Virus record (IMG/VR): IMGVR_UViG_3300010413_000078
Span: 1 to 41,361 of that record
Direction: 5' to 3' (one strand)
DNA: 41,361 nt
Source of the DNA: a virus
The translations under genes were made by a program, and so were the position numbers. Shown here in pieces: positions 4,502 to 37,992 of the stretch. The stretch's first letter is position 1, and every line of letters starts with the position of its first letter. The notes below the pieces were generated by a model. That model made no database searches and was not told where the DNA came from. It was given only the letters and a program-made list of their open reading frames with translations.

Positions 4502-4784
4502 GAACCAGAGAGCACAGATGGCAATCTATGAGCAACTAGCAAATATATCGTCCAACGTCGCTGACTTGGCAGTGTTCCAGAGCCAACTATCACAGGACAG
4601 ATATAGCGAGCTTGTTGAATGGGTTGAAGATATACAGAAATGTATTGAGCTAACACAGTGTAAGCATTGTGATGGAGAGGGTAACGCAGAAGGGCTGGAC
4701 GTTAAGTGTGCGGCCTGTGCGGGGCTTGGTGTACGGATCTATATATCTGATCCGCCACTACTCATCCAATTGCTCAGTGATTAG
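4473..4784 (+). CDS. Small protein with DnaJ-type CxxCxGxG zinc motifs
   Basis: 103 residues from ATG 4473, which has CGAGG eight bases upstream; ATG 4518, just after the upstream stop, is an alternative. A helical first half is followed by C-K-H-C-D-G-E-G and C-A-A-C-A-G-L-G, two CxxCxGxG elements as in the DnaJ cysteine-rich zinc domain but only one pair. Such mini zinc proteins occur in phages and are thought to bind zinc for protein contact. It is the last gene of the rightward operon, and its TAG overlaps the stop of the converging minus-strand gene. Confidence 0.6.
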   Translation: MHLHWKTKAKNQRAQMAIYEQLANISSNVADLAVFQSQLSQDRYSELVEWVEDIQKCIELTQCKHCDGEGNAEGLDVKCAACAGLGVRIYISDPPLLIQLLSD

Positions 4785-5485: not shown

Positions 5486-5769
5486 TAAGATTTCTCCGTC
5501 ACACCGGTCTGTACGCTCGCTTTCTTCGTATCAACGAATGTTGCCCTGCCTTTATTGATGCCGTATCCACCAAGGCCAAGCCAAGCTATACCGTCACGAA
5601 AGCTGTTAACGAATCCCTCCCATTGTGTCCATTCCTGTCCGGCAAATCCAATACGCCAGCCGACAAAAGAATAGCAAACGAAAAGTGAGAGTACAGCACT
5701 AATGAGTGCCACACGCCCAGCACTTACTTTATTGGGATCGTCAGGACTCCTAATTACTGACTTTATCAT
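5485..5769 (-). CDS. Small membrane protein, holin-like
   Basis: 94 residues. One clear transmembrane segment (about 19-40, A-L-I-S-A-V-L-S-L-F-V) and a weaker hydrophobic stretch (I-A-W-L-G-L-G-G-Y-G) are followed by a charged C-terminal tail. Size, topology and place between two other membrane proteins fit a holin, but no family signature is certain. It starts three bases after the upstream stop (TGAACAATG, GCAGG ribosome site) and overlaps the next gene as TAATG. Confidence 0.5.
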   Translation of the reverse strand: MIKSVIRSPDDPNKVSAGRVALISAVLSLFVCYSFVGWRIGFAGQEWTQWEGFVNSFRDGIAWLGLGGYGINKGRATFVDTKKASVQTGVTEKS

Positions 5770-6236: not shown

Positions 6237-6638
6237 CTATGAGACAGCAAGCGTTACATCTCCCTCTCCCCAGATTTCACCTTTTTCGCCAGTATAAATA
6301 CTGCTATTTGCTGACAAAAGTATCTGAATATCATAATACCTGTGCGTAGAGCCAATGGCCCTGGTATCGGCAGGCACTAAGTCAAACCTCAAGATCGGGT
6401 CTCCATCACCACTGCCATCGTCCTCAAGTTGGCCGGTCCCAGGGACGTCGGAAGTTGTGATTTCCTTCTGGATGATTGCGTCAATATCGGCGTCTGATTC
6501 GTCGTCCTTGATTGTCAACCATCCCTTGGTAATATACACACCAATCGGTAGATTGCTCGCAGTACGATCAATCGTTCGTCGTATAAGTAATGAGTCGCCA
6601 GTGGCAAACCCTGAAATCGTCGCAGAGAAATTAGGCAT
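6237..6638 (-). CDS. Small virion-associated protein of unknown function
   Basis: 133 residues, beta-rich, starting inside the end of the giant fibre gene (8-base overlap, ATGCCTAA). It has recurring Thr/Ile/Asp strands (I-R-R-T-I-D-R, W-L-T-I-K-D-D-E, Y-Y-D-I-Q-I-L-L-S) without cysteines or membrane segments. Small proteins of this type behind tail-fibre genes are often fibre accessory or adaptor proteins. I infer that role from position only. Confidence 0.5.
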   Translation of the reverse strand: MPNFSATISGFATGDSLLIRRTIDRTASNLPIGVYITKGWLTIKDDESDADIDAIIQKEITTSDVPGTGQLEDDGSGDGDPILRFDLVPADTRAIGSTHRYYDIQILLSANSSIYTGEKGEIWGEGDVTLAVS

Positions 6639-9600
6639 CGTCCCAAACCTCGTAGTCTACATAGTTCAATATAACCGTATCTGTGTTAGACAGCAACAAC
6701 GACATTGTTGCCTCGTTTTTGTGCATAGCGACAAATGACGGGACAAGTATGTTGGAAAGATTTCCAAACAATGTCGCTGTCCCTGTAATGGAGGCCGATG
6801 CCCCTCTGATTACATTGTGTATTTCTGCTATCGTTGCGGTTGCTGAAATACTTGCCGACGCTCCGAAATCAATCACAGCGTCTGCCGCTGTCGTGCCGAT
6901 GCCAAAGATAGCAGAAGCACCAGTCCTGACTCTTGTTGGTGCGGCATTAACAGTCGCAGAGCCGGTTATCGTCGCAACGCCAAACTCTAACGTGCCAGTA
7001 CGTCCAGTGGCCGAAACCGTTGCTGTGCCTGTAATCGCGGCAGTGCTCGCCAGCGTAATGGATGCACCAGCGGCGACTGTAGCTGTCCCAGATATACTGG
7101 CAACCCCAGAAACCGCACCGGCCAGTGAACCAACAGCGTTTACCGTAGCTACGCCGGAAATACTGGCTGTGCCGCCAACATCCCTTGTTCCGACAGCATT
7201 CACAGTCGCTGTCCCAGATATACTCGCGACACCAGATAGTGCGCCAGTCACCGAACCTACAGCATTAACTGTTGCCGTACCAGATATAGAGGCTGCACCA
7301 GGAACGTCCTTAGATGGCACAGCGTTAACGCTTGCTGCTCCTTGGACGGAAGCGGAAGCGGCAAACAAGGCAGTTGCTGTTGCCGATACAGTCGCTGTGC
7401 CTGAGACACTTGCGGTGGCAGAGTGTATTGTGCCGCCGCCTGTCTGGTCAGCCTTCAGTTCCGTGTCGAGGGCGGCAATGTCGGCGTCGGACAACGCGGT
7501 GTTGAATATCGCAGCCGCGATCAGATACCCGCCGGTCATGTACAGCGATGGCGTCGCGCTGGACGTCGCGCCGAACCGGAGCGGGAGCGCATTGGCGAGC
7601 GTTGCTGTCGTGCCGTCCGTGCCGGGCGAGCCCGTGCCCGTACCATTCAGGAACGCTTCGAGATCGTCGTCCGTCGTGTTCCGAACACCCACGACCGTGA
7701 CTTCCGACCCGCCAGTGCCAGCGTCACCCGTGACATCGACCGCGGCGTTGCTAGACTCCGATATATATACGGTGCAGGTCTCGTTTGAATTCTGCTTGAT
7801 CCTATACCCTGGATTCGCGCTCCCGTCGTCCTCCACTTTGGCTATGAGGTACTGTGTACTCGTAGGGTTGTCGATTGGCCGGAACGCCACCGCGAACGTG
7901 AAATCATCGGCCGCGCCGAAGTCGAGGTCCGCGTGGTCCGCTACCTCGAAGTAGTCGTCATTCTCGACATACATCAAGTTCCGGTTGACGACCCCAACCT
8001 CGGCCACATTGTTGCGGGTGATTGTCATCGTTACGGCGTTGGAACTGTTCTCGACGTAAGACGTAGCGTTAGATGCAAGCGACTCGTTCACGAAGTCGCT
8101 GTGGTGGGCCAGCGTGCTACCAAGATCGCTGTACGCCTTGATGTCGTAGAATACGCCGACTGGAGCACTCGCTGACAGCATACCAATGATATTCAGCCAC
8201 CCGTCACTCGCGTCCGTCGCGCCGGTGTTCGCGTCGGTCTGCGCCGTGCCGAGTTCCGTCCATCCGTCAGTGTCCAACACACGCCAGTAGAACCGGCACT
8301 CGCTCTGACTCGATCCGTTGTCCTGATCGAACGTGACACGAAGCTTGCGGCGCACACCGTCCGTGAAGCTGATCGCAGCGGACGATGTGTACGTGACGTT
8401 CGTATTGGATACGCGGCGAGTAACGAACAGGTAACCGTTGTTGATCCCGAACGTGAAGTCTATGTCCGCATCGGAACCACGCTTCACCCAGAATATCTGG
8501 TCACTCGCCACAACCCAATCGTGCAGCGCAACGTCGTAGTGTAGCTCCTGGTCGCCCGTTATTCGTGCGTGGGCATCATCAGCGGTCCAAATGCTCCCGC
8601 TGTAGTCACTCGAAACTGGACGGAATACACCCTGTTCACCTTCTGTGGAATAATCCACGAACACGGGATCGTTGCTGTCTGCACCACCAGTTGAGCCGAA
8701 CTGCGCGTGGTGCCCGTTCCCGCTCTGGTCAGGCCACGACTGACCGTCTGTCGATGGGTCGTACCTGTCGGCGTGCCACCAGGCTATCGCTGTGCTTAGA
8801 ATATTGGTTGGGACTGTGCCAACAGCACTGACTGTAGCTGTACCAGATATACTGGCAGTAGCCACTTTTTCTACAGCACTAGACGCACTGACTGTAGCTG
8901 TGCCAGTAATTGCTGCAACACCAATTACAGTTTTCGATGGTGCCGCAGATACGGTTGCAGTACCGGAAATACTTGCAGTCGCCGCCTTCTCAACCGACCC
9001 AGGAGCATTGACAGTTGCCGTGCCTGAAATGCTGGCCGAAGCTGAGTGTATTGTACCGCCACTAACTGTTTGGTCGGCCTTTATTTCCGTGTCGAGAGTC
9101 GCCATGTCCGTATCGGACAGGGCAGACTGAAAGACCGCTACAGCGATGACTGGTCCAGGATAGAAATATGAGTAATTACCGGAATTGTAGTCCACACCAA
9201 ACAGAAGCGGGTATGGATTCGCCATTCCAGCGGTTAGATCGTCGGTGTCCGGGCTTCCTGATCCAGTCCCGTCCACGAACGTCTCTAGTGTGCTCCCTGC
9301 GACTCGGACGAAGCCCGACCCAATGTCGCCCGCGACCTCGGACCCACCAGCCAACGCGTCGTAGGCCCACTGATCGTTGTCGCCCTGAATCATACTCTGG
9401 GCTTCACCTGTCGTTCCTGTCCGGAGGTAGTATCCATGGTTGCCCGCGGAGTTTGTTTGTGCCTGCTTCTTTTGGAGAATGATTCTGGTGGCGGACACTA
9501 CCGACAGGGACCGATAGGCAACGTACACAGTCCAGTCATCTGTGAGGCCGGGGTCCAGGTCCGCATGGTCAGCGACTTCGAAGTAGTCGTCGCCGGTCAG

Positions 9601-12600
9601 CAGCCACAGATTCCGATTGACGACCACGGGTTCGAGTGCGGTGCCGCGATAAACCGTTACCGTGTCGCCATTGGATGACGACTCCGTAAAACTTGCGACA
9701 CCGGGAGTGACGTTGACCTCGTCCGTACAGTCGATGTCTACAAACGCAGTCCCGTCGATCCCGTTACGCAACGTCAGTCGATACAGGTCGCACGTTTCGA
9801 CCGCAATCCCCGCCTGCACTGTACCGAAGTTCAGGTCATTTGTGCTGTCTGTAATACTGGTGGTCGCACCACCTGTGACAGTAGAGCCTAGCTGGGAATA
9901 GGAACCGCCAGGCACGCGTGTATAGAACTTTACATCGTAACCACTCGCACCGTTGTCGATATCAAGCGTGACCTTGATCTGTAGCCGGTCCCCATCCGAC
10001 ACAGACGGTGCGGCGGTAGACTCCGCGAATCGCTGCGTGCCGGATTCGTTCCAGTAAAGGATGAAGGTGCCACCCGACTGAACCCGTACACCATAAACGA
10101 TTCTAGATCCATTATACTTCTGAAATATGTAATGGCCCCCGACAGTCCAGTCATTCAGCGCAACATCCAGTTCTACTTCTAAGTCGCCGCTTGTATAACG
10201 CGTGGACGGATGATTAGTGATCTGAAGCCTGTTGTCTGGCAACCCGCCAACCGAGTTGTAGCAACCGATATACTGCGTCCCGTCATACGGCAGGAACGTC
10301 GGATCATTACTGTCAGCCCCACTCGACGACCCCAACTGAGCATGATGCGCGTTCCCGCTCTGGTCCGGCCAGGACTGTCCGTCTGTCGATGGGTCGTATC
10401 TATCCGCGTGCCACCATGCGATGGCCGTACTGAGGATACCTGACGGTACAGTACCGACAGCATTTACTGTAGCTGTACCTGATATTGATGCGGATGCTGA
10501 GTATGCAAGCGTGGCTGCGGCAGTTGTGGTGGCCGTGCCAGATACTGAGCAAGCACCGCCAACATCTCGTACAGGTGCTGCGTTGACAGTAGCTGTGCCT
10601 GAAATGTCTGCGACACCTGTAATAACTTTTGTAGGTGCGGCTGAGACGGTGGCAGTACCAGTAATGGCGACTGTTCGTGCAATGCCCAGAGATGGTGCGG
10701 CTGTGACACTGGCTGTACCGGATATGGAGCTACTGCCGACCACACCTTTTGACGGGACAGCATTAACGGTTGCTGTGCCGGATATAGATGCGGCCCCCTG
10801 CTCTATAGTGCCAGTCGTTCCGACAGCATTGACAGTTGCCGTACCGGAAATACTACTGACGCCAGTAAGTATCTTTGATGGAGACGCTGTGACAGTTGCA
10901 GTGCCAGATATGCTTGCAGAGTTATTACGGTCTGCACTTGGGACTGCGTTTACTGTTGCGGTACCGGATATATCTGCCAAGCCGACCAGGTCTAACCGCG
11001 CAAGACCGCCAGCAGTCGCAGTTCCTGTTATATTGCTAACTGCAAGCAGCATCAATCCGCCAGTGACATTGACAGTGGCAGTACCTGAAATTGCCGACAC
11101 CCCAGTTCTTCCCCTGGAAGGCGTGGCAGTTGTGGTTGCGGTTGCGGTAATTGCCGCTGACGCTGACAGTATGCGTGATGCAGATGCTGCAACAGTAGCT
11201 GAGCCGGTAATGGAGGCCGCACCGGTAACCTCTGTGGCTACTGCACCGACCCAGCCCGTTGTGCTGATTGTAAAGTTATCAAGCCTAATCTCTGACGCGG
11301 CATCCATCTGAGTGCCGATGTCGCCAAGGAATACACCGTCAAGTGGACGGTTCAGTCCTTCACCACTGATCGTACCGGAGTTAATGGTCGAGTCGTTGAC
11401 CCGCCATTCCCAAGCGGTATTCGTGATGTCCCAGCGCATCTCCAGCCGATAAAGCGTATCGACTGAGATATCTACGGATTCAAAGTTGGTGCTTCCGCCG
11501 TCGTACCATATCTGAGCTTCAATCCGCAGAACGCCGCCAGACGTCTTGTACAGGATATACTGGTAAAACTTCTCGTCCTGCGAATCACGGGTGGACAGAA
11601 AGTGGACGCTGTCCGAGTTCGCTAGCGACTCCGACTCGATGATGACTTCCAGCCGGGAGTAGTGGATCGGCAGTCCGTCTGTCGCACCGCCCCAGTCACG
11701 GTGCAAAACATAGCTGTCCTCACCGCCGACAGATGCTATGCGCAGACATTTATCACCCCACCAAGCCGGTGCGTTGGTGACTGAACTGGTCGGATAGTCG
11801 GAGTCCAGGACAGCAGAGCCAGTTACTGTCTCACCGATACTCCACGTTTCGTCGTAGCCAGTAGCCTCGAACCGTTCGTCCCACAGGTAGATCCCTGTGA
11901 CAGTAGCAGTTGGCGTGGATGTGGCCGTACCGGAGATACTGGCAGAGGCAGACTTGGTGACGCTGGCACCGGCAACTACAGTAGCTGTGCCGGATATGGA
12001 TGCTACACCATAATCTATCGGGACTTTAGCTACGGTAATGCGAGGCGTAACTGAATACGCGTCGGTGGCAGAACCGGCATCGTATACCCTGAAATCCAGT
12101 GTGTCACTGTTATTGACATCCGCATCAACAATGTATACACAGAACTCACACTCGAAACAGTCGTTCTTTGTGGCAATAGTTGACTGTGCGGTTGCGCCGT
12201 CTACCTCGTCTGCGTAGCCAACGCCCTCAAATACGCCGGCAGATCCAGCACTCAGAAGCTGAGTAGAACATGTGTCACCGTCAGCATACTGACTGGATAG
12301 TGTGGCCTGTACGACGCTTGACGATCCCGTGACCGCTGTTTCTTCGCCAGCGAACGATCCGCTATTACGAGATACATAAAGTGTAGGGGTGAACGACGCT
12401 AGTTTGTCGTTTGTCTCGTCAAGGACGAACCGGATACGGAACCTGTTACTGGTACCGGTCCCGATGGCAGATGCTGGGTTGGTGTCTTGTACGGCCAACC
12501 AGCCACTATCGGTATTGAGTGCGGCAGAATCGTCACGAACCCGGAAGTGTACCTGGTTCCAAGCTGGAGCACCAGCCGTTATCTCACGCGCTATCTGTAC

Positions 12601-12654
12601 TGAACGCGGGATGGGCCAAATATCAGGCGGAGTGACTACCCACCAATCACTCAT
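6631..12654 (-). CDS. Giant repetitive tail fibre/adhesin with two LamG-like modules
   Basis: 2007 residues. N-terminal domain about 1-205 (W-W-V-V-T-P-P-D-I start, probable virion attachment). Then about 30 copies of a short motif, consensus S-I-S-G-T-A-T-V, separated by 8-15 variable residues, in blocks at about 208-250, 478-735, 1200-1280 and 1740-1975. Between blocks lie a beta-sandwich-like insert (about 255-478) and two large paralogous modules (about 739-1195 and 1284-1738). Both modules begin with the same A-I-A-W-W-H-A-D-R-Y-D-P and carry D-Y-F-E-V-A-D-H-A-D-L-D, a LamG/concanavalin-like carbohydrate-binding pattern. The repeats likely form a beta-rich stalk. It overlaps both neighbours by 8 bases and sits in the fibre region, so it is probably a receptor-binding fibre. 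The module DNA looks richer in G+C than the repeat DNA, suggesting acquisition or duplication. Confidence 0.75.
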   Translation of the reverse strand: MSDWWVVTPPDIWPIPRSVQIAREITAGAPAWNQVHFRVRDDSAALNTDSGWLAVQDTNPASAIGTGTSNRFRIRFVLDETNDKLASFTPTLYVSRNSGSFAGEETAVTGSSSVVQATLSSQYADGDTCSTQLLSAGSAGVFEGVGYADEVDGATAQSTIATKNDCFECEFCVYIVDADVNNSDTLDFRVYDAGSATDAYSVTPRITVAKVPIDYGVASISGTATVVAGASVTKSASASISGTATSTPTATVTGIYLWDERFEATGYDETWSIGETVTGSAVLDSDYPTSSVTNAPAWWGDKCLRIASVGGEDSYVLHRDWGGATDGLPIHYSRLEVIIESESLANSDSVHFLSTRDSQDEKFYQYILYKTSGGVLRIEAQIWYDGGSTNFESVDISVDTLYRLEMRWDITNTAWEWRVNDSTINSGTISGEGLNRPLDGVFLGDIGTQMDAASEIRLDNFTISTTGWVGAVATEVTGAASITGSATVAASASRILSASAAITATATTTATPSRGRTGVSAISGTATVNVTGGLMLLAVSNITGTATAGGLARLDLVGLADISGTATVNAVPSADRNNSASISGTATVTASPSKILTGVSSISGTATVNAVGTTGTIEQGAASISGTATVNAVPSKGVVGSSSISGTASVTAAPSLGIARTVAITGTATVSAAPTKVITGVADISGTATVNAAPVRDVGGACSVSGTATTTAAATLAYSASASISGTATVNAVGTVPSGILSTAIAWWHADRYDPSTDGQSWPDQSGNAHHAQLGSSSGADSNDPTFLPYDGTQYIGCYNSVGGLPDNRLQITNHPSTRYTSGDLEVELDVALNDWTVGGHYIFQKYNGSRIVYGVRVQSGGTFILYWNESGTQRFAESTAAPSVSDGDRLQIKVTLDIDNGASGYDVKFYTRVPGGSYSQLGSTVTGGATTSITDSTNDLNFGTVQAGIAVETCDLYRLTLRNGIDGTAFVDIDCTDEVNVTPGVASFTESSSNGDTVTVYRGTALEPVVVNRNLWLLTGDDYFEVADHADLDPGLTDDWTVYVAYRSLSVVSATRIILQKKQAQTNSAGNHGYYLRTGTTGEAQSMIQGDNDQWAYDALAGGSEVAGDIGSGFVRVAGSTLETFVDGTGSGSPDTDDLTAGMANPYPLLFGVDYNSGNYSYFYPGPVIAVAVFQSALSDTDMATLDTEIKADQTVSGGTIHSASASISGTATVNAPGSVEKAATASISGTATVSAAPSKTVIGVAAITGTATVSASSAVEKVATASISGTATVSAVGTVPTNILSTAIAWWHADRYDPSTDGQSWPDQSGNGHHAQFGSTGGADSNDPVFVDYSTEGEQGVFRPVSSDYSGSIWTADDAHARITGDQELHYDVALHDWVVASDQIFWVKRGSDADIDFTFGINNGYLFVTRRVSNTNVTYTSSAAISFTDGVRRKLRVTFDQDNGSSQSECRFYWRVLDTDGWTELGTAQTDANTGATDASDGWLNIIGMLSASAPVGVFYDIKAYSDLGSTLAHHSDFVNESLASNATSYVENSSNAVTMTITRNNVAEVGVVNRNLMYVENDDYFEVADHADLDFGAADDFTFAVAFRPIDNPTSTQYLIAKVEDDGSANPGYRIKQNSNETCTVYISESSNAAVDVTGDAGTGGSEVTVVGVRNTTDDDLEAFLNGTGTGSPGTDGTTATLANALPLRFGATSSATPSLYMTGGYLIAAAIFNTALSDADIAALDTELKADQTGGGTIHSATASVSGTATVSATATALFAASASVQGAASVNAVPSKDVPGAASISGTATVNAVGSVTGALSGVASISGTATVNAVGTRDVGGTASISGVATVNAVGSLAGAVSGVASISGTATVAAGASITLASTAAITGTATVSATGRTGTLEFGVATITGSATVNAAPTRVRTGASAIFGIGTTAADAVIDFGASASISATATIAEIHNVIRGASASITGTATLFGNLSNILVPSFVAMHKNEATMSLLLSNTDTVILNYVDYEVWDDA
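6668..6696 (-). promoter_or_regulatory. Weak candidate promoter for the last four genes
   Basis: Minus strand: TTGCTG, 17-base spacer, TATATT, inside the 3' end of the giant fibre gene. It shares the TTGC / TATATT form and spacing of the three intergenic promoters but lacks their extended TG. Being inside a coding region, it may be chance. Confidence 0.3.
7420..10445 (-). repeat. Intragenic duplication of a LamG-like module
   Basis: Two copies of a module of about 1.36 kb lie within the giant fibre gene, at about 7440-8805 and 9070-10440, separated by four SISGTATV motifs. The starts are close at DNA level too: both contain CCGTCTGTCGATGGGTCGTA and nearly the same surrounding bases (about 8720-8790 and 10360-10430). 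The interiors have diverged more, showing an older duplication with different selection along the module. Confidence 0.75.
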
Positions 12655-14120: not shown

Positions 14121-17100
14121 TCATCTTGCACCAGGCAGGAACGCGTCCCATTCCACGAAATCTTCTGCGTCAGGGGTCATACTTGCCGTTCTATTTGCAG
14201 TTGACTGTGAATACCACGAAACACCGTAAGGGTCCGTGTCCGGGTTACCGGTGACACTAAAGCTACCGTAAGCTGTGTCACCAGACCAGTTAGTCACCTT
14301 CAGTCTTATTTTATCGTCTGTGCCTTCAAAGCCAGAGACAGACAGGACGCTGTTGATGTTTGAATACGTCACATCTACATCTCCTATATCGTAATCTGCA
14401 TCTATAACCCATTCGTGTGTTGCCCTGGTTATCCACCCTTCAGTTGCATTATCGTAGCTCTGGATTGCAAGGTTAAGCGTGACCTGTCTTGGCGGCTTAC
14501 CGGACAAAGTGGGCGCACTTAGCGTGATATTAACGTCAAACGTTACCGTGTACGAGTCGTCGTGCGCTGGCAGTGTCTCGGTCGTCAGGTTGGCCTCTTT
14601 GGTGGTTGTCGCCCAATCTAAGGCGCGAATCGAACCAGCCGCAAATCCAACATGCTCCAACGTTGCAGTGCCAGTCTTCTGGTACAATTGGGCACGTAGA
14701 TCAAATCCGGTATTGTCAAGGTTGACAGCCTTACGGTCCATGTAAACAGGTATCGTCGTTGAGAATGACGTATCACTCCAGTTGGCCGTACGCGGCTCAC
14801 TGACAGCCCCACCACGTATGACAACCACCGGGGTATCTACAAATGCTGGCGAGAATGTTACAGAATCGCCATGTTGTCCAATGCCAGACTGTCGCGATGC
14901 AGTAGAACTGAATGATCTGTTCGCAATTGGTCTGAATTCGTCAATGGAGCCACCAGCATCCCCAATAGTTACAGTCTGCGGGGCTACTACCCACGCAGAA
15001 AATGTCGCGCCTGTCCGTGACCGGACAGCAACATTCCAAGAGCCATTAGGGAAGTTGGACGCGATAAGCTGTTCGTCCCCAATAGGTGCGGTACCAACGA
15101 TGAAATAATCCCCACTGGACGTAGTCAAACGCCGCCCAACCTCATGCACTGCTGTCCCGCCAGTCTGGTCGGTCCAAGACGTTGTGATAACACCAGACAC
15201 CTCACTCACGGAAACACCAGTTGGCGCAGTTGGTGTAGACCCTGACGCATAGGCAACAGCACCAATGGTCCCACTGTCGTGTGCTGCTCCGTCCAAGTTG
15301 GCGTTCGTCGGTGCCCAGCCAGCCTTTACCCACTGATGGAGTGCTTGCGGGTTATACGATGTATTCCACGCACCTGTATTCATCAGCCGGAATTCGGCCA
15401 TCATATTCGTAGTGGTACCTGTCCCACCAAGGGACGCATCCCACGTTGCGGAGTTTCTTGTATTGTCCAAGAACGAAGGGTTCTCATCTACATCATTAGC
15501 ACCGTAATCAACGCCATACGACGCCGTTGAAAACGTTACTTCGTATGGTCCTTGTCCTGCGTATCGCCCACCGCACAGATACGAACAATTATAGTCCGCA
15601 CCGGAGGCAGTCACGATGTCCGCAACCGGATCAGTCGGTTCTTCCGCCGTAAGCGCACCATCACCACTTGTAACCGCCCACGCAAGATTGCTCTTAAGCT
15701 CTGCAATCATTCCAGCATGTCCTGCGTATGTCTCACCTACAGTTACGCCGGTGGAGTACCCATGCTGGCTACCTTCAACGCAAAACGTGTTATGCAGTGC
15801 CTTGACTGTTAAGAATGAGCCACCAGCACAAGTAATCATTGTGCCTGATTGATCGCCAGTACCCTGATTGGGCAAGACGATACAGTTCTGGACAGTGACA
15901 GTTTTAGCTTCCGATGGACTACCCATCCCCATACAGTCACCAACTGCACTTGATCCCGTGTACTCAAAGATCCAGCCATCGTGCGTTGTGTTGACAACTC
16001 CGGTATTGGATGCGTGCGGCAAACTCACGAAGTGTGGATTCGTGGTGTCTGTATCAGTAATGAAATAATTGTTGAGGCAATTGAACGGGAAATTGGCGGA
16101 GCCTACCTGCTCTTTCCAGATCAGATTGTTCTTGAAGCTGGCAGGCATCTGTCCTGTAGCGGACAGTGCGACAGGACTGCCTGCCGTGGCTATTACATTA
16201 TCCTCAATCGTATAATCTTTAAGGTTGTATCCAATAGTCTTGTCAACATAGTTGCGCTGGAACGATCTCGTGCCACTTGTTAGTGGTGCACTATAGTGTG
16301 ACAGGAAGAACGAATAAGAACCTAACCCATTCTTAAAGTTGTTATCGTTGATAATCGTTGAGTACCCATCTACGGAATGACCAGCCTGACGGAACTCACC
16401 ACAGCCATCAAACGTGCAGTGCGTAACGACCAAACTGGGGCATACAGTAGACGATGGATATGGCGAAAACCCATAATTCGACGCATCTCCAATATCGTAG
16501 AAGTCAGTATACGTAGCTACAACCATCCCACCACGTAGCCAGCCACCGTTGGAGAATCTGCCATTCCCGCCAGAGGTGTTCGACTGGCAGGTGCACCTGG
16601 AGCCAGAGGTGCCATTGAACGACAGTCTGCCTACAGGGTTAGCGTTGTGGCCTGTGCCAAGTGTCCAGACGTACGTGGTAGTGGTTGGACTAGCACCACT
16701 GGAATCGAACGTTATTCCACCACCAGCACTCACATCTGCATTGATCCCATTGGTCTGTAAAACATTACCTTTTACAGTAAGTGTAACACCAGATGCAATA
16801 GTCAATGCTGCATTAAGAGTCAGGACAATAGACGTAGAGTCACCTGGACTGTCGCCTATCGTTGTGTTCGTGTTCACTGTGACAGCGTGGTTTACTGTTG
16901 CTGTGTCACCATCTCCGGGAGGCCCAGATCCGCCCCATGTAGCAGTAGAACTCCAGTTCCCTGATTGCGTGGTTGTAAACGCTCCTCCTCCACCACCACC
17001 ACCAACACTATACTCGTCAGCACCAATGTCCCAAGAAGACCGAGTCTCTCCATCTATATCGTCCGTAAAAGTACCAGATAGGTCTGTGCCAGCACCATAA

Positions 17101-17948
17101 CCACTATCAGCAGTTGAGTTCAGGTGATAGTCCCTTGATGCCAAGGTCGCATTAGTATCGTCAACGTAGTCAATCGTCGGCGTGTCGGAGCTATCGATGC
17201 TGTTCGTGCCCCAATATGTGACACCGGACGCATCGCCGTCCGTTAGGTTGTAGTCGGACGCGGAGTCGATGTTGCTGACCGTCGAGCATACGACTGTGCA
17301 ATTCGTGACCCGTACGTTCGTAAGTTTGTGCCCACCGTAGGAATTGTAGACACCCTGGTAGCAGTCGTCTATGGTTACATTTTCAGCGATGATCTTCGCG
17401 CCCGTCCCGGCGTTACCAATCCCGTTCTGGAGGCCGTAGAGGAGCGAGTTCCGGACCCAGATGTCGTGCAGCGGCTCAGAGTTCCAGATCCCATCCGGTG
17501 CGGCGGGCTTACTGGACGGTCCCATCACGATCAACTTGTCGATCTCGGTCTGGCCCACCGCATCGAGTGACGTTCCAGATTGATATCCACTGGCGTTCGA
17601 CCCGGCAGACGTCAGATTGCACTGAATCCCGTCGAGCATCAGGTAGTTGACGGAGTTATTCGTGATCGTGGCGGCGGAGTTGACCAGTCTGTAGCACGAG
17701 GTGCTCCACACACCTCCGTGATCATCCACCGCCCGAACGATTACTCTGTACGTAGCACTCGTGGTAATCGTAGCCGAGATGCTACAGGCAGTCGTGTCCT
17801 CGAAGTTGTAGCAGTCTAAATAGATGTTCCCAGGATTCCCTGACCCGTTGTCTGTGGTCAGGTCTACCCCGTTCAATCCAGCGAACGCCGCGTTCAGACT
17901 TGCGTAGTCTCCGCCGGACGACTTGACGGTGTATGTAACATCAGCCAT
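14121..17948 (-). CDS. Large beta-helix tail spike with G8-like and FN3-like segments
   Basis: 1275 residues. Residues 1-312 have the Gly/Asn/Thr-rich periodicity of a right-handed parallel beta-helix (V-K-S-S-G-G-D-Y start, ending D-I-G-A-D-E-Y). A run of glycines (about 314-321) links to a G8-like segment (N-W-S-S-T-A-T-W-G-G-S-G-P-P-G-D-G-D, then L-T-I-A-S-G-V-T-L-T-V). A second beta-helix follows to about 900, then a fibronectin-III-like domain (about 905-1005, with S-W-T-D-Q-T-G and W-N-V-A-V-R-S) and a beta-rich C-terminus. Phage proteins of this build are tail spikes that bind or degrade surface polysaccharide; no catalytic residues can be assigned. The G+C-richer first 800 coding bases suggest a shuffled N-terminal module. 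Confidence 0.7.
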   Translation of the reverse strand: MADVTYTVKSSGGDYASLNAAFAGLNGVDLTTDNGSGNPGNIYLDCYNFEDTTACSISATITTSATYRVIVRAVDDHGGVWSTSCYRLVNSAATITNNSVNYLMLDGIQCNLTSAGSNASGYQSGTSLDAVGQTEIDKLIVMGPSSKPAAPDGIWNSEPLHDIWVRNSLLYGLQNGIGNAGTGAKIIAENVTIDDCYQGVYNSYGGHKLTNVRVTNCTVVCSTVSNIDSASDYNLTDGDASGVTYWGTNSIDSSDTPTIDYVDDTNATLASRDYHLNSTADSGYGAGTDLSGTFTDDIDGETRSSWDIGADEYSVGGGGGGGAFTTTQSGNWSSTATWGGSGPPGDGDTATVNHAVTVNTNTTIGDSPGDSTSIVLTLNAALTIASGVTLTVKGNVLQTNGINADVSAGGGITFDSSGASPTTTTYVWTLGTGHNANPVGRLSFNGTSGSRCTCQSNTSGGNGRFSNGGWLRGGMVVATYTDFYDIGDASNYGFSPYPSSTVCPSLVVTHCTFDGCGEFRQAGHSVDGYSTIINDNNFKNGLGSYSFFLSHYSAPLTSGTRSFQRNYVDKTIGYNLKDYTIEDNVIATAGSPVALSATGQMPASFKNNLIWKEQVGSANFPFNCLNNYFITDTDTTNPHFVSLPHASNTGVVNTTHDGWIFEYTGSSAVGDCMGMGSPSEAKTVTVQNCIVLPNQGTGDQSGTMITCAGGSFLTVKALHNTFCVEGSQHGYSTGVTVGETYAGHAGMIAELKSNLAWAVTSGDGALTAEEPTDPVADIVTASGADYNCSYLCGGRYAGQGPYEVTFSTASYGVDYGANDVDENPSFLDNTRNSATWDASLGGTGTTTNMMAEFRLMNTGAWNTSYNPQALHQWVKAGWAPTNANLDGAAHDSGTIGAVAYASGSTPTAPTGVSVSEVSGVITTSWTDQTGGTAVHEVGRRLTTSSGDYFIVGTAPIGDEQLIASNFPNGSWNVAVRSRTGATFSAWVVAPQTVTIGDAGGSIDEFRPIANRSFSSTASRQSGIGQHGDSVTFSPAFVDTPVVVIRGGAVSEPRTANWSDTSFSTTIPVYMDRKAVNLDNTGFDLRAQLYQKTGTATLEHVGFAAGSIRALDWATTTKEANLTTETLPAHDDSYTVTFDVNITLSAPTLSGKPPRQVTLNLAIQSYDNATEGWITRATHEWVIDADYDIGDVDVTYSNINSVLSVSGFEGTDDKIRLKVTNWSGDTAYGSFSVTGNPDTDPYGVSWYSQSTANRTASMTPDAEDFVEWDAFLPGAR

Positions 17949-31730: not shown

Positions 31731-32708
31731 TTAGGCAGTCGCCGCAACAATCGTGTTGAAGTACACGCCGAGATCAGCAGAAACCAGCTTAATGTCGGTC
31801 GCGGTGCGAATCTCGTAGTGGTCGCTGTGCGCGAATTCGTCACGCCCAGTCATAATCACGCCACCCATCGCATTGGTAACACCGGGGATAAGCCCAGTCC
31901 AAGCAAACGTGTAGCCAGCGGACGGGGTGTTAAGTCCCGGTCGCGGAGCCGCATAAACGAGCAACGCATCATTATCAGCACTAATAAAGCTGAAGCTGTC
32001 AGTCGCGCCCTCAACGGCAGTGTTCTGAACCGAACGCGGAACCAGCACCTGTTCGAGGCCGAGAGCGGCTGCGATCAGGTCGGTATCGATGATACCGGCT
32101 CGCGTGTACTTGAAAATGTCCTTCAGCTTGTCGTGATTACGGAATACCCTGTAAGCCCGTGCACCAAGCACCAGCTTATTCGGAGTAACCGCAGCAAGCT
32201 TCTTCGTGGCTTCCTTGTACTCATCAATCAGAGCCATCGGGTCGCCCGTACTCGGGTAAGCAATCTGAGTGAAATCAGTATCGGCGTTACCCTCAAGGTC
32301 TCCAGTCCAGACGCCAGTGGTCATGTAGGTCGCAGCCCACCGGACATCGTTGTTGACCATAGCCTGCGACATCAGAAGCTCCATAGCCTCACGACGCACA
32401 GAAATAGGATCATCAGCGTTCGTAGTTACGCGGTCATCCGCCTTGTAAGCAAGCGCACGCTCTTCGCAGCTATACGATCCGTCCGTCTTGGACCATTCAG
32501 CCACATCAGCACGCCCACCAAGGGGCCTCACGCCCATCTGGTCACGCCAGTAATCCCCACGATTAAAGATCACGTACTTATCACTCGCCTTGCGGACCGG
32601 CACGACAGGGAAAACCTTGTCATGCACGAAGTCACGCGATTCCTGGGCGAACGACACAGACAGATTCGTCAAATATCTGTCTACGTGAAGTTCATTGGGA
32701 GTCGGCAT
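31731..32708 (-). CDS. Major capsid protein
   Basis: 325 residues. The opening V-D-R-Y-L-T-N-L-S-V-S-F-A-Q, the early V-F-P-V-V-P-V-R-K-A-S-D-K-Y, the spine-like helix region (A-M-E-L-L-M-S-Q-A-M-V-N-N-D-V-R-W-A) and the later P-N-K-L-V-L-G-A-R-A-Y match HK97-fold capsid proteins that need no N-terminal cleavage domain. Best ribosome site in the window (AGGAGAATAACAAATG). It sits after scaffold and decoration genes, behind a dedicated promoter. Confidence 0.85.
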   Translation of the reverse strand: MPTPNELHVDRYLTNLSVSFAQESRDFVHDKVFPVVPVRKASDKYVIFNRGDYWRDQMGVRPLGGRADVAEWSKTDGSYSCEERALAYKADDRVTTNADDPISVRREAMELLMSQAMVNNDVRWAATYMTTGVWTGDLEGNADTDFTQIAYPSTGDPMALIDEYKEATKKLAAVTPNKLVLGARAYRVFRNHDKLKDIFKYTRAGIIDTDLIAAALGLEQVLVPRSVQNTAVEGATDSFSFISADNDALLVYAAPRPGLNTPSAGYTFAWTGLIPGVTNAMGGVIMTGRDEFAHSDHYEIRTATDIKLVSADLGVYFNTIVAATA

Positions 32709-32727: not shown

Positions 32728-33105
32728 TTATGCAATTGTTCCAGCAGGCGCACCAGGACAGGCAAGGAACTTAATCACTTGTCCATCTACACCATCTTCC
32801 AACGCGACCCCCACGATATAGTCACCAGTCGTCGCTGGAATAGCGTGACCAGTCGTGACTTCGTTCGTGAGGAATTCGCCAGCCGCCACAGCAGCACCGG
32901 CGATAACCTTACCCTTACCTGCAAGCAGGATCGTTCCATTACCAGAAGCCGGAGTATCCAGCAGTACGAACCCACCCGTGCCACCAGTGGCAGCAAGCGC
33001 AAGTTCGGCAGATCCGTCGAGAACGACGATCTTATACTGATGGGCACTCAGATCCCCGGATACAGGGTGGCTATCACGGATCTGAAGCATTCCCTCAAGA
33101 GCCAT
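32728..33105 (-). CDS. Capsid decoration protein (DUF2190-like)
   Basis: 125 residues, beta-rich and Gly/Ala/Val-rich: V-I-A-G-A-A-V-A-A-G-E-F, D-Y-I-V-G-V-A-L-E-D-G-V-D-G-Q. This matches DUF2190-type decoration proteins that stabilise the capsid lattice and are usually encoded just before the capsid gene. Ribosome site AGGAGA. Confidence 0.7.
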   Translation of the reverse strand: MALEGMLQIRDSHPVSGDLSAHQYKIVVLDGSAELALAATGGTGGFVLLDTPASGNGTILLAGKGKVIAGAAVAAGEFLTNEVTTGHAIPATTGDYIVGVALEDGVDGQVIKFLACPGAPAGTIA

Positions 33106-33128: not shown

Positions 33129-33992
33129 TTACTTGTAATACTCTCGTCCAAGCTCGGGATTCCTGTCAACCACAAGCTCAACAGCCTTGTGATACGCGAC
33201 ACCCTCACTCTTCATAATCGACTTGGCTTCTTCGTCAATTCTGCCCCAAGCGTCAGCATTGTACACGCGACCAGGCGCGGCAGAGCCGACTTCCTCGAAC
33301 GCGATCTTGGCTACGTTGGAAGCAGCACGAAGCATCTCAAGCGTTTCCTCAAGTGCCTCTTCACCTGCGGACTCGGCAACTGCCTTCAGGATTGGAGCGA
33401 TTTCGTGAGGCGTACGGGTCAGAGAAAGGTCGGAGACCATCTCCCTGTACTTCGCCAGTGCTCTCTCCTGCTTCAGTTCCTCGACCTCAGCCTTCAGAGT
33501 CTCAAGGTCTTCGTTCACTTCTTTTACAGGCTCTTCGACAACCTCTTCAGCCTCGTCCTTGACGGCTTCGACTGCGACAGGTTCTGCATCGGCGGGAGCC
33601 TCTTCCACTACTTCCTCTTCTGCGACCTCTTCCTCTACCTCTTCCTCTTCCTTTTCCGTGGACACTTCATCTTCCACTGTCTTGAAAGAAAGGGATTTGG
33701 CGATTTCATCTAGGTCGGACTCGGTGAACGAGTCGCGGAAAGCAGCAAGGATACGAGACACCGCAACGGCAGCCTGCGTCGTTCCGGCGTCCTTGTCGGC
33801 GGACTTAAGCGCCTCGACTAGAGACTCTTCGTTTTCCGCCTGAGTTTCCGTAATTACTTGGATCACTTCATCCATTGGACTATCCTCTTGATGTTTTGTG
33901 ACTAAAAACTCACGCTTATTCGCTGGTCTCTTAACGAGGGAGACCCTTTTCGGCCTCACATCGAACATATAGCCTTCTACTGGACTTGACAT
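33129..33992 (-). CDS. Capsid scaffold-like acidic protein
   Basis: 287 residues from the second in-frame ATG, 33992, which has GGAG at better spacing than the ATG at 33998. The first 30 residues are basic (V-R-P-K-R-V-S-L-V-K-R-P-A-N-K-R), the middle (about 105-180) is a very acidic Glu/Val-rich coiled segment, and the C-terminus is helical. Low complexity and place between protease and capsid fit a scaffold that is removed by the upstream protease. Confidence 0.6.
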   Translation of the reverse strand: MSSPVEGYMFDVRPKRVSLVKRPANKREFLVTKHQEDSPMDEVIQVITETQAENEESLVEALKSADKDAGTTQAAVAVSRILAAFRDSFTESDLDEIAKSLSFKTVEDEVSTEKEEEEVEEEVAEEEVVEEAPADAEPVAVEAVKDEAEEVVEEPVKEVNEDLETLKAEVEELKQERALAKYREMVSDLSLTRTPHEIAPILKAVAESAGEEALEETLEMLRAASNVAKIAFEEVGSAAPGRVYNADAWGRIDEEAKSIMKSEGVAYHKAVELVVDRNPELGREYYK

Positions 33993-34028
33993 CGGCATTC
34001 TCCATCGCGTAAGTCATACATTGTCGCC

Positions 34029-34058: not shown

Positions 34059-35300
34059 TTAGCTAACAAGAATCGTGCCAGGATCGATGCGTGTCATAGC
34101 GTCAATACTGAACCCAGTATACTCTCCAGCCTTTACCTTTTCCCATTGTACGGGATCAGCAACATGCACTCCCATAACCCAAGAACCGGCCTTCACCGGT
34201 TTGCCGCCAAGTACCGTATCTTCAGGTGTGACCCACGATTCCACCGGCACTGCGTCAATCTCTTCACGCGAGTGGTTGGTGTCGATCATCCTGTAGTTCT
34301 CCATAAAGTGATGTGCGGCTTTTTCGATCTCGTCCGCTGTCGTCCAGTTGAAGTCGGTGTCATTCTCGTTCGGCTCCATAACGACACCGTACACGATCTG
34401 ACGTTCAGGACTAGAATGTTTGACAATCTCGCACGACAGATGCACATCCCCGTTGTCAAGAGACTTCTTAAGCCGATGCATCTTACGTTCGACCTCACCA
34501 GTATTACCCCAGATCCTGATTGCTCGCGGATGAGGAACCCACTCTGCCGCTATGTCCTTCAGTGCACGGTGTGCGGTCTTACCAAGTGCGACAATTACCA
34601 TTGGGTCGGCATCACGGAGTTCATCAACGAACGCTGGTAGTGCGGCTGCAATTTGCTCAGCCGAAGGTTCTGTCGCGTTGCCGTTCTCGTCCTCGATGTA
34701 CTCCTTGACGATGGTAGTCATGTACACATCGTCTTCCTTCAACTCTAGCGGCTGTATGTACAGTTCTTCTAAAGTCTTACCGACCATACCAGAGAACGGA
34801 CGCTTACGAATTGTGTCCAGCTTGGACGGTGATGCACTGACAAACGCTACCTTTGCCCCGCGTCGCCCGCGCCCAGGCAGTGGCTGTTCCTCTGTCTCTA
34901 CAACTGTAGCCACTTCCGCCGTATCTTCTTCTGTAGAGCCGACATAGTTTGTCCAACTACTGTCCAACTCTTGTACGATAGGCAGGTACTTAACGCTGTC
35001 CAGGAGTCCTGCATCCTTCAGCGTGAGGTACAGCGTCTCTGCTTTATCAAGCGTATCGAAATACTCTGAGTTCAGATTCGCCATCTGGAGCTTCAATTCA
35101 TCAGGCTCAATGTCACCTTTGAAAATCTCCTTGATCTTCTCCCACATTGTATTTTCTCCATGTTTGCTAATGTCAATGTCGCCCATCGCTATCCCTTGTG
35201 CGAGGGCTTTCTTGCGAGCGTTGCTACCGGTGTAGCATTTACCACCGTCGCCCCACTTCCAGCCGCTGACTCCGTCTGCACTACATCTTTTCAGTGGCAT
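34059..35300 (-). CDS. XkdF-like prohead protease with an embedded UDG-like domain
   Basis: 413 residues from ATG 35300 (GAGG six bases upstream; a longer frame to 35354 overlaps the portal gene). Residues 1-40 have K-C-Y-T-G-S-N-A-R-K-K-A-L-A-Q-G-I, a short motif seen at the start of some phage structural proteins. Residues about 149-285 follow the uracil-DNA glycosylase family 4/5 plan: V-A-F-V-S-A-S-P-S, R-P-F-S-G-M-V-G-K-T-L, D-V-Y-M-T-T-I-V-K, V-I-V-A-L-G, and H-P-R-A-I-R. The usual G-E-x-P-G acid is absent, so activity is doubtful. Residues about 290-405 match XkdF: D-T-N-H-S, V-E-S-W-V-T-P-E-D, G-S-W-V-M-G-V, G-F-S-I-D-A. Predicted to process the head. Confidence 0.7.
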   Translation of the reverse strand: MPLKRCSADGVSGWKWGDGGKCYTGSNARKKALAQGIAMGDIDISKHGENTMWEKIKEIFKGDIEPDELKLQMANLNSEYFDTLDKAETLYLTLKDAGLLDSVKYLPIVQELDSSWTNYVGSTEEDTAEVATVVETEEQPLPGRGRRGAKVAFVSASPSKLDTIRKRPFSGMVGKTLEELYIQPLELKEDDVYMTTIVKEYIEDENGNATEPSAEQIAAALPAFVDELRDADPMVIVALGKTAHRALKDIAAEWVPHPRAIRIWGNTGEVERKMHRLKKSLDNGDVHLSCEIVKHSSPERQIVYGVVMEPNENDTDFNWTTADEIEKAAHHFMENYRMIDTNHSREEIDAVPVESWVTPEDTVLGGKPVKAGSWVMGVHVADPVQWEKVKAGEYTGFSIDAMTRIDPGTILVS

Positions 35301-36705
35301 CGTCTTCCTCATCGTCTGCGGGGCTGACACCCTTCGGGTCAACACCGCGACCATTATAGAATGGCTGTGTCGTCGGCTGTTCCATCACCTCGATGCTCTT
35401 CGGCGGCAGACCAGCCTGCGAAGCCAAGTGCTCTCTGACTTGTTCTTCCGTAAGGTCAAGCCCGACACCAGCAAGTGCGTTAATGTATTTCGCAAGTTCC
35501 GTGAGATCGACAGTCTCAACGTCGCCATGAATCATGCGCGGCATCTCTGACCGAGTGATACCGTTCAACTGCAAAAGCCGTGGAATCGCAACACGATTGA
35601 ATTGCTCGCAAATCGTGTCCATGTACGACCCGATGGCGATACTGAACACCTTGGTCTTACTGGACGCCAAAGCAAACGAGCCTACGCCGTCCTGCCCAAT
35701 GACAACAAAGTCGGCCAGCATGGACGTAGCGATGGCACGGTTCATGCGCGTGATAATAGCGTTCGTATCAAATCCGCGCCTACCGAGCGTAGTCAGCAAT
35801 TCAAGCTTGACAAGCTGGTTGCCGAAGTCGTCGTACATAGCTGGTAGCACAATACCGGCCTGCGAGTCGTTACGGATATTGCTGACCATCTTCTCGACAG
35901 CGTTCTTCATCTGGATCTCGTCGGCACTTGCCGCTGACGACAATGCCTTCGGCGGGATATAGGCTACCGGCAGGCCATTCAGGTCGCGCTCCACACCGAT
36001 GCCTTCTACCTCTTCCATCCGCTTCTTGAAGAACCACTGCCTGTACGCATTACGCAGGATTGACCGGCCTTCAGGGTTGTCTTTCCATACTGACGTACGA
36101 AACAGGATACCACGGTCAATCGGTATCTCGCGTGGCTCGTACGTGGGAGCCGGACGCTGGACCAGTGCCTTCAGGCTCCCATTTGCATCAAAGACCCAGG
36201 AGTCCAGTGAGTCCTGTGAACGTATCCCGAACTTCTTCCAACCTATACGCTGGTCGTTATACTTGGACCCGTTCTCCAGGTCAAGGATATTACCATCTCG
36301 CACCTTATATACTATCTCAAAGAACGACCAGCCGAACACGATCATTGACATAATATCAGAGATCAGTTCACCGAACGGTCGGTCCATATCCTCCAGACAT
36401 TCCTCAATGAATTCCGCGTCGCGTACATGGCGCGGCTTATCGGAGAATGGTTCTATGGTGAACTTCGATTGTCTGACAAGATTCAATATCGCCATCATAA
36501 CGGCCCCGATGACGGGGTCGTTGTCACGCATCTCCTTGTAGACTCTGATTGATTGGTTGCCGTACAGTTGAGTGAGGAACTCTTCCTGGATCTGGCCACC
36601 ACTGACAACCAAGCCAGTTCTACCGGATTCGTACGAGATCCGTGAAGGCACACTACTTGCCGCCTTCGTGGTCTCGACCAGTTCAAACGTCATTTCATCG
36701 GCCAT
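35281..36705 (-). CDS. Portal protein (DUF935 / Mu gp29-like)
   Basis: 474 residues. R-D-N-D-P-V-I-G-A-V-M-M-A-I-L, V-R-Q-S-K-F-T-I-E-P, F-G-W-S-F-F-E-I-V-Y and the long alpha-helical wing region (E-G-I-G-V-E-R-D-L-N-G-L-P-V-A-Y-I-P) are typical of DUF935-type portals. Forms the dodecameric channel at the packaging vertex. Follows the large terminase after 12 bases with a GAGG site. Confidence 0.85.
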   Translation of the reverse strand: MADEMTFELVETTKAASSVPSRISYESGRTGLVVSGGQIQEEFLTQLYGNQSIRVYKEMRDNDPVIGAVMMAILNLVRQSKFTIEPFSDKPRHVRDAEFIEECLEDMDRPFGELISDIMSMIVFGWSFFEIVYKVRDGNILDLENGSKYNDQRIGWKKFGIRSQDSLDSWVFDANGSLKALVQRPAPTYEPREIPIDRGILFRTSVWKDNPEGRSILRNAYRQWFFKKRMEEVEGIGVERDLNGLPVAYIPPKALSSAASADEIQMKNAVEKMVSNIRNDSQAGIVLPAMYDDFGNQLVKLELLTTLGRRGFDTNAIITRMNRAIATSMLADFVVIGQDGVGSFALASSKTKVFSIAIGSYMDTICEQFNRVAIPRLLQLNGITRSEMPRMIHGDVETVDLTELAKYINALAGVGLDLTEEQVREHLASQAGLPPKSIEVMEQPTTQPFYNGRGVDPKGVSPADDEEDDATEKM

Positions 36706-36717
36706 TGTAACCTCTAG

Positions 36718-37992
36718 TTAGATCATTGTCCACGGTGATTCTCTGCCAATCAAGATCGGGGCCACTGGTGTACCCTGCCGCTTCTGCTTGTCCTTCCACA
36801 TCTTTACAGCCATCGCTAGTGCGTCCACACAGTCATCGTGGACACCCTTCGGTGCGGAATACAGGACTCGCCCAGAATTCGGCAGTATCTGGTACTCGAA
36901 TGCCTCAAGCTCGTCAACTATCGGCCCTACCGGGAACGTGATTTCTTTTGTATTAATAGCTATCGCCAGCCCTAACATAAGATCCTGCTTCGACCTGGCA
37001 CCGCCAAACAGGTAACCCCTGAAGTTACGGTGCCCGTCAGTGTGGAGTCGTTCTATGAATTGGTCGCCGCTACCGGTCGAGTCAATCATAGCTGACACTC
37101 CACCTGTGATACTGTGTACCTTGGCGTACGTACTATCCCATGAATCCTGCCATCGATGGAACTGACACGTATCGCCATTCTCGTCCAACGCGATCCCGAC
37201 TGTCCAGTTATTGTGTTTGGCTACATCCCAGCCCCAAGCAAAAGGTTTACCGTCCGTCATCGGCCCAATACATTCCTGTATCGAAGTGATGCCGAACGGG
37301 TTACCGCCATCGTCGCCTGGCTCAGCAAGATATAGTTCCTTAAAAACCGGTTCCGGGTAAATCTTCTTCGCGTCTTCTATTTCCTTGTACGAAATGACGC
37401 CGGCCTTGGCCGCATCGAACGCCGTAATCTTGACGTAGTGCATATCGGGGTCGCCCTGTTGGGCAAGACGGGCCAAACGGTACATCCAGTTGGCGCGTCC
37501 CTTCACATTCCCGATAATCCGTACCGGTGCTTCCGTGGCAGTTACCGTGGACCGCAGTGCATACCATGAGTCGGGCTTCACACGGCTGGCCTCGTCCACC
37601 ACGGCACCGTATACATCTTCGCCGTACAGTGAGTCCGGCTTATCACCGGACTTGAACCAAATGTACGCACCGTTAGTCATCTTCAGGTACTTACGGCTTT
37701 CGTTCGCCGTATACATATTACTCGGGATCATCTCTTTGATCCGCCTGAACGCGATATCGGCCTGATCGGATACCGGTGCTACCCACCAGTAGTGTCTGCC
37801 TGGTGCACCCTCAAGTATCGCTTTCTCGCAAATCCATACCGCACAGCCGATGGTCTTACCGCTTTTGGTTGACGCCTCAATAATGGCGTACCTTCGTGTA
37901 TTGAAGATACCTTCTAGCTGTTTCTCGTATAGCCACGGGCGTACATAACCCAAACTGTTCTCAGGTGTGTCCCTGATAACCTCAACTGTCAT
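36718..37992 (-). CDS. terL: Terminase large subunit
   Basis: 424 residues. ATPase: Walker A E-A-S-T-K-S-G-K-T (39-47), Walker B V-V-D-E-A (131-135), and a coupling-like G-N at 161-162. RNase-H-like nuclease: D256 in W-G-W-D-V, D304 in M-I-D-S-T-G, and the aspartates of H-D-D-C-V-D-A-L-A (386-390). These drive DNA translocation and cut the concatemer. The gene is separated from terS by an inserted exported-protein gene, and its own ribosome site is weak (AGG at five bases). Confidence 0.9.
   Translation of the reverse strand: MTVEVIRDTPENSLGYVRPWLYEKQLEGIFNTRRYAIIEASTKSGKTIGCAVWICEKAILEGAPGRHYWWVAPVSDQADIAFRRIKEMIPSNMYTANESRKYLKMTNGAYIWFKSGDKPDSLYGEDVYGAVVDEASRVKPDSWYALRSTVTATEAPVRIIGNVKGRANWMYRLARLAQQGDPDMHYVKITAFDAAKAGVISYKEIEDAKKIYPEPVFKELYLAEPGDDGGNPFGITSIQECIGPMTDGKPFAWGWDVAKHNNWTVGIALDENGDTCQFHRWQDSWDSTYAKVHSITGGVSAMIDSTGSGDQFIERLHTDGHRNFRGYLFGGARSKQDLMLGLAIAINTKEITFPVGPIVDELEAFEYQILPNSGRVLYSAPKGVHDDCVDALAMAVKMWKDKQKRQGTPVAPILIGRESPWTMI

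Follow-up and report, generated by a model that had tools for sequence, protein, structure and literature searches.

What is a uracil-DNA glycosylase (UDG) doing in front of a viral head protease? The question is raised by one gene of IMG/VR virus record IMGVR_UViG_3300010413_000078, of which positions 1 to 41,361 (41,361 nucleotides) are the window analyzed here. The original prediction, made from the sequence alone, described the gene product as a UDG-like domain fused to an XkdF-type prohead protease. Two roles were proposed for the extra domain: DNA sensing or scaffolding in head maturation, or a packaged base-excision function. Head proteases enter the prohead and act there.

A UDG fold and a head protease in one polypeptide

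The reading frame of the fusion gene is open further upstream, up to position 35354. MPLKRC was taken as the start because the homologues L011 and L174 start likewise. The gene coordinates and the string H-P-R-A-I-R (residues 257–262) agree with the original prediction, and both protease motifs that it quoted are present, D-T-N-H-S around H343 and G-F-S-I-D-A at S398. It was also right that the acid of GExPG is absent; S-A-S-P-S is found instead. The features of the gene and its neighbours are listed in Table 1.

Pfam model PF03167 (UDG) matched residues 142–260 with an E-value of 1.5e-12 (48.2 bits, cut-off 24.3). PF14550 (Peptidase_S78_2/XkdF) matched residues 291–402 with 116.7 bits (cut-off 24). 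The NCBIfam type-4 UDG equivalog model matched with E=4e-16, yet its 59 bits fall far short of the curated cut-off of 250. When PDB sequences were searched with phmmer, UDGs were the sole convincing matches (top 4zbx, E=6e-8). The AlphaFold model, built from a 68-sequence alignment, has pLDDT values of 93–98 across residues 141–280. Its top Foldseek matches were UdgX and family-4 UDGs (E about 1e-11; UdgX 2e-11). Alignment with the family-4 UDG of T. thermophilus (1ui1) by VIA-align gave a Z-score of 18.8 and an rmsd of 1.9 over 144 residues.

Residues 137–285 are a genuine family-4-type UDG fold, and the structure prediction gave no different fold in residues 149–285. By its sequence, the segment 291–402 is an intact XkdF head-maturation protease. 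The fusion of a UDG-like domain to an XkdF-type protease is therefore borne out by Pfam, AlphaFold, Foldseek and VIA-align. As judged from the sequence, two domains of disparate kind stand on one polypeptide, a UDG fold whose activity is doubtful and a protease. The N-terminal hairpin module MPLKRCSADGVSGWKWGDGGKCYTG (pLDDT 85–94 over residues 1–42) was common only to the window and its close relatives L011/L012 and L174 when all ORFs were searched by regular expression.

Table 1. Coordinates of the fusion gene, its parts and the neighbouring head genes in the window.
Feature	Position	Strand	Basis or remark
UDG-XkdF fusion protein CDS	34059..35300	-	413 aa; start MPLKRC
N-terminal Cys-containing hairpin module MPLKRCSADGVSGWKWGDGGKCYTG..., residues 1-42	35175..35300	-	Regular expression over all ORFs
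Low-confidence linker 5' of UDG fold, residues 119-134	34899..34946	-	pLDDT <50
UDG-fold domain, residues 137-285	34446..34892	-	Pfam, Foldseek, VIA-align Z 18.8
Degenerate motif A SASPS for GE(A/G)PG, residues 155-159	34824..34838	-	Alignment with 4zbx and 57 UDG domains
D162, acidic position	34815..34817	-	Alignment of 57 UDG domains
F169, equivalent of uracil-stacking UdgX F65; retained	34794..34796	-	Alignment
T196, where UdgX has uracil-contacting N91 (Asn)	34713..34715	-	Alignment
Motif B, H257-P258	34527..34532	-	Alignment
UDG/protease low-confidence linker, residues 285-296; candidate processing region	34413..34448	-	pLDDT <50; K-A/S/T-D/E enrichment at equivalent junctions of relatives
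XkdF / Peptidase_S78_2 protease domain, residues 291-402	34095..34430	-	Pfam E=8.4e-34
H343, candidate catalytic His	34272..34274	-	Alignment; 49/49 covering sequences
S398 in G-F-S, candidate catalytic Ser	34107..34109	-	Alignment; 48/48 covering sequences
Terminase large subunit	36718..37992	-	PHROG and Pfam
Portal protein (Mu type), directly upstream	35281..36705	-	PHROG and Pfam; 20-base overlap with fusion gene
Probable scaffold, VSLVKRPANKREFLVTK N-terminus, downstream gene	33129..33998	-	Synteny across relatives, weak PHROG match; role inferred
Small head protein	32728..33105	-	PHROG 673 'head scaffolding protein'; decoration-like by position
Major capsid protein	31731..32708	-	PHROG 1005

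Position among the head genes

The fusion gene lies between the portal gene and the scaffold-like, small head protein and capsid genes, with the terminase gene upstream. Lambda-J-like tail fibre and tape-measure genes occur elsewhere in the same record, which indicates a long-tailed phage.

The VSLVKRPANKREFLVTK segment is common to the scaffold-like genes of relatives and some XkdF proteins (Exiguobacterium-type phages, Dulem virus 37). It is possibly a processing or docking signal. Elsewhere in the window, the protein at 2216–3301 (+) combines a Myb-like DNA-binding domain with a metallophosphoesterase match, and an ORF of 362 aa (2183–3271) runs antisense to it. The tail region encodes two large proteins, one of 2007 aa (6631–12654, -) and one of 1275 aa (14121–17948, -), the latter without a PHROG match.

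Recurrence of the fusion in viral contigs

No fusion came up when the entire window protein served as query in direct protein scans. A scan of IMG/VR with the UDG-XkdF fragment gave the first one, L008, which is 34% identical across both domains. From an alignment of the two fused cores a large further set was obtained, and an alignment of the UDG clade added more, again in IMG/VR. About 50 distinct metagenomic viral contigs carry the fusion, and head genes adjoin it nearly always. Chance, or an assembly or frameshift artefact, was rejected as the explanation because so many distinct contigs share it; split ORFs (L045/L173, L139, L158, L135) were handled with care.

Counting each UDG domain once, and only where XkdF shares its ORF, gives 53 non-redundant ORFs: 24 with UDG and XkdF only, 5 with a phosphoesterase as the only addition, and 24 polyproteins. 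In more than 40 contigs the portal gene is followed by the fusion gene and then by the genes for scaffold, small head protein and capsid, as traced by homologues of the portal, scaffold-like and/or capsid genes. One UDG-XkdF ORF came from a Methylococcaceae MAG (L091).

Among the named phages of INPHARED, we found only XkdF without UDG, or UDG in other genes, chiefly SPO1-type polymerases. UDG was absent from the five named XkdF proteases examined in full (HSTV-1, psiM100, Summit, Dulem virus 37 and LL12). The HSTV-1 protease had matched over residues 181–402; it lacks UDG, and we judged the upstream stretch of the match spurious. The label 'DNA methyltransferase' on vequintavirus proteins that match XkdF was rejected as an annotation artefact, the LL12 protein being a protease of 139 aa. 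PHROG 1530 is named 'DNA methyltransferase' and matches XkdF proteases, and vequintavirus head proteases bear the same label; the name looks like a misannotation. By eye, L007 has a probable intein within a head-morphogenesis-like protein (3465–5492, +), and a homing-endonuclease-like ORF lies inside it on the opposite strand (4455–5378, -).

Larger relatives are head-gene polyproteins

About half of the fusions are single-ORF polyproteins of 1000–1850 aa. They have up to eight segments per polypeptide, and the ORFs start with ATG (for example, L144 3820–7539 and L138 3856–7641). The usual order is N1, Pol-beta-type NTase, (D12 methyltransferase), class I methyltransferase, ATP-dependent DNA ligase, UDG, LigD-type 3'-phosphoesterase (PE) and XkdF. 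With a domain set that varies, these polyproteins occur in L018, L025/L032/L146/L177, L028, L031, L138, L141, L143–L145, L147, L151, L154, L159–L161, L163, L164, L167 and L168. In strikingness they outdo the window protein.

In L018, Pfam identified the ligase (E=1.6e-18), UDG (1.1e-21), XkdF (1.1e-32) and a methyltransferase (1.4e-11). The D12 methyltransferase was found in L032 with E=1.8e-19. One segment has the pattern G-S...D-x-D, from which we take it to be a Pol-beta-type NTase. The PE domain is weak in Pfam (E=0.0017), and its predicted model has pLDDT mostly of 84–95. Compared with the archaeal LigD PE 3p43, the model gave a Z-score of 13.8 and an rmsd of 2.1 over 123 residues. The modelled structure thus confirmed the domain as a LigD 3'-phosphoesterase.

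The H-x-D-x-R signature is retained in most PE domains. Of the aligned ligase domains, 25/30 have the motif-I Lys, and the remaining five are gapped there. The ligase EG-x-V-x-K motif is largely retained, and most of the domains have Asn for the Asp of K-x-D-G. With the ligase and PE motifs retained, many polyproteins look like working enzymes by their sequence, the change in UDG motif A apart.

Related proteins without UDG were also observed. L021/L022 (4297–6357) encode a related polyprotein of this kind, N1-PE-XkdF in L021. When host genomes were searched with the polyprotein PE domain, only three clear genomes were found, and there was none among 299 genomes of the L091 phylum. L192 (976–3582, minus), in a genome of the L094 phylum (Bacillota), encodes a LIG-D12-PE-XkdF polyprotein without UDG. 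L186, from a genome of the L131 phylum (Anaerolinea), has NTase, ligase and phosphoesterase pieces of the same kind; L193, from a genome of the L106 phylum (Omnitrophota), has a ligase and a phosphoesterase. No UDG or XkdF occurs in the about 3.5 kb examined of the L186 and L193 bacterial stretches, which are possible prophage remnants.

The glycosylase pocket is eroded in the window protein

The pocket was numbered after UdgX. The window residues at UdgX E52, F65, N91, H178 and R184 are A156, F169, T196, H257 and I263. The T-N motif of UDGs reads T-T in the window (T195-T196), a change that the original prediction did not mention. Motif B, which reads HPS..(L/V)R in catalytic family-4 UDGs, retains His-Pro, with Arg (R262) at +5 and Ile at +6, where the polyproteins have Arg. 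There is no Cys within residues 137–286, so the four Fe-S cysteines, a feature of family-4 UDGs, are missing. Also absent from the window sequence are the KRRIH loop and GEQPG, which define UdgX (PMC10359453).

We aligned 57 UDG domains, including two outside UDGs (L181 and L052). The motif-A Glu has changed clade-wide, mostly to Ala (46/57). The His-Pro of motif B is present in 56/57, and position 162 is E or D in 56/57. In the polyproteins, Asn (N91 equivalent) is present in 19/21, Phe in 18/21, His (H178) in 20/21 and Arg (R184) in 20/21. The corresponding numbers for the minimal UDG-XkdF proteins are 11/18, 6/18, 18/18 and 3/18.

Could the window domain still work as a glycosylase, perhaps a slow one, or read lesions, and be packaged to repair the phage genome by base excision? 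The acid would then come from another residue, for example D162. H257, F169 and the acid at 162 are retained, and UdgX E52A keeps its activity, only one to two orders of magnitude lower (10–100-fold slower; PMC10776899). The UDG of close relatives is under purifying selection (see below), and relatives join UDG with PE, NTase and ligase, a would-be repair set. However, Thr replaces the uracil-contacting Asn in the window, and the UdgX mutants N91A and H178A are inactive (PMC10776899, PMC10359453). The domain also lacks the K-R-R-I-H loop, GExPG and the cysteines, and the polyproteins are more plausible carriers of such a function. We consider an active window glycosylase unlikely. Because the motif-A acid and the uracil-contacting Asn are both lost, the window UDG is probably inactive, and most likely it is no active or useful glycosylase. 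From the residues that they keep, the polyprotein UDGs could be slow glycosylases.

These results separate the two roles originally proposed. For the window protein, the evidence best supports DNA contact or scaffolding without catalysis. Packaged base excision is unsupported there, with the equivalents of UdgX E52 and N91 missing; it may still apply to the polyprotein relatives, whose pocket Asn, His, Phe and Arg persist beside ligase, 3'-phosphoesterase and NTase.

The non-catalytic role could also be one without any DNA-related function. The UDG fold would then be purely a protein-protein or scaffold module for prohead targeting, or a spacer in the lumen. The loss of catalytic residues agrees with this, as does a fusion without an obvious separate targeting domain, and the XkdF of Dulem virus 37 and psiM100 bears scaffold-like segments instead. 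But a simple spacer would not need the HP motif and the pocket acid, which are near-invariant in the clade, and the same UDG stands among DNA enzymes in the relatives. A pure scaffold is, in our judgement, improbable.

Selection on the UDG domain

Pairwise dN/dS of the UDG segment was about 0.03–0.18 in close pairs and similar to that of the protease; these pairs are non-independent, exclude the window sequence (nearest relatives ~60% identical), and several of their dS values are near saturation. The minimal forms are in the same range, with the UDG-XkdF-only pairs L010/L011, L014/L149 and L165/L166. The low ratios indicate that the UDG domain is maintained, and in close relatives it appears to be under strong purifying selection. 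The UDG could be no more than a passenger, left over from the decay of a larger polyprotein and retained because it lies in frame before an essential protease. We judge this very unlikely. The step-by-step gradation between full polyproteins and UDG-XkdF and the rarer pocket residues of the minimal forms would fit, but UDG-XkdF-only pairs, none including the window, have these low ratios, and the UDG fold is predicted with high confidence.

Candidate processing sites

At inter-domain junctions not preceding XkdF, K-A-(D/E) was observed 28 times where 8.3 were expected (maximum of 18 in 1000 shuffles). In domain interiors the count was near expectation (31 observed, 25.3 expected). The junction directly before XkdF is the conserved N-terminus of the protease and is not independent. 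Since the motif was chosen post hoc, from the same related sequences in which it was counted, the enrichment is a lead and no proof. The window protein has no K-A-D/E motif, and IVKHSS precedes its protease. Scaffold-like neighbours carry a similar segment, FL(V/I)xK-(S/N/E/Q/H).

Discussion

On balance, though by little, we favour a UDG-fold module that the protease takes along into the prohead. In the window it would serve DNA contact or structure and not base excision, and in the polyproteins it would be packaged repair cargo. In this tailed phage, the head-maturation protease bears an N-terminal UDG-fold domain. It presumably reaches the prohead by the head-assembly pathway, and its N-terminal fusion partners would therefore enter too. 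In relatives, this N-terminal cargo would comprise a Pol-beta-type NTase, methyltransferase(s), an ATP-dependent DNA ligase, UDG and a LigD-type 3'-phosphoesterase. XkdF at the C-terminus could separate the cargo enzymes inside the prohead, and the freed enzymes may work on the genome after packaging or just after injection. In the window, the cargo would be cut down to the UDG module, as a non-catalytic domain that contacts DNA or lies in the prohead lumen. Packaging, cleavage, delivery and DNA binding are steps that we infer.

A fuller form of this proposal is plausible but held more tentatively. A tailed-phage lineage may encode a repair kit (NTase, ligase, 3'-phosphoesterase, UDG and methyltransferases) as a polyprotein with its own head protease. 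Maturation would free the enzymes in the head, for the packaged genome or for cell entry, and the window protein would be a reduced, non-catalytic UDG reader. We read the window protein as a reduced member from the erosion of its pocket.

Iyer et al. 2017 (PMC5512222) describe polyvalent proteins of phages and conjugative elements, single chains that unite several enzyme domains of unrelated kinds and that, as proposed there, are packaged along with the DNA and injected with it. Some have an assemblin-like peptidase, always C-terminal (PMC5512222). In the fusions, XkdF is C-terminal. By this analogy, release by a C-terminal peptidase and delivery with the DNA may apply here. Unlike those proteins, the fusions use the phage's own head-maturation protease at its normal gene position, and their cargo is DNA-repair-like. 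When the text of PMC5512222 was searched, no UDG domain, DNA ligase domain or XkdF was found in it.

Known XkdF/Peptidase_S78_2 proteases (PF14550, PHROG 3017) share the protease domain, the invariant His and Ser and the place after the portal, whereas the known members examined are without UDG. With family-4 UDG and UdgX, the window domain shares the fold, the HP of motif B, the stacking Phe and an acid six residues past the motif-A Glu position. It differs in having no motif-A Glu, Asn, Fe-S cysteines or R-loop, and in its fusion to a capsid protease. SPO1-type family-A DNA polymerases also have a UDG-fold domain fused to a phage enzyme, but the partner and the genome location differ. The UDG domain of these polymerases is the closest sequence match of the window UDG in named phages (phiLo polymerase 9qhs, Z=13.1).

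LigD joins a ligase to a 3'-phosphoesterase, as the polyproteins do. It also has a polymerase domain and is not known to carry a capsid protease or UDG. In ANMV-1, a methane-seep archaeal virus (KP703175; L180 3200–5800), a ligase and a PE-like domain share one ORF of 868 aa between the portal and terminase genes, and this ORF has no XkdF or UDG. The 'MutT-like phage hydrolase' gene beside it matches phage portal PF06381. In the literature searched, outside which most subscription journals lie, neither a UDG nor a DNA ligase was described as fused to a head protease; the one paper there that mentions both a prohead protease and a uracil-DNA glycosylase deals with a staphylococcal phage transcriptome. 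Named phages gave no such fusion.

Specialists would not expect the ORF of a prohead protease to contain a DNA ligase, a LigD phosphoesterase and a UDG as well. The architectures are graded, and where the other enzymes are absent the glycosylase pocket is eroded. The system offers a testable scheme of phage polyprotein processing, in which the candidate cut sites lie where domains join. The larger relatives suggest that the virus head is assembled with repair enzymes inside. Every virion faces the practical problem of damage and single-strand breaks in its packaged DNA, and a direct solution would be repair enzymes that the maturation protease places in the head.
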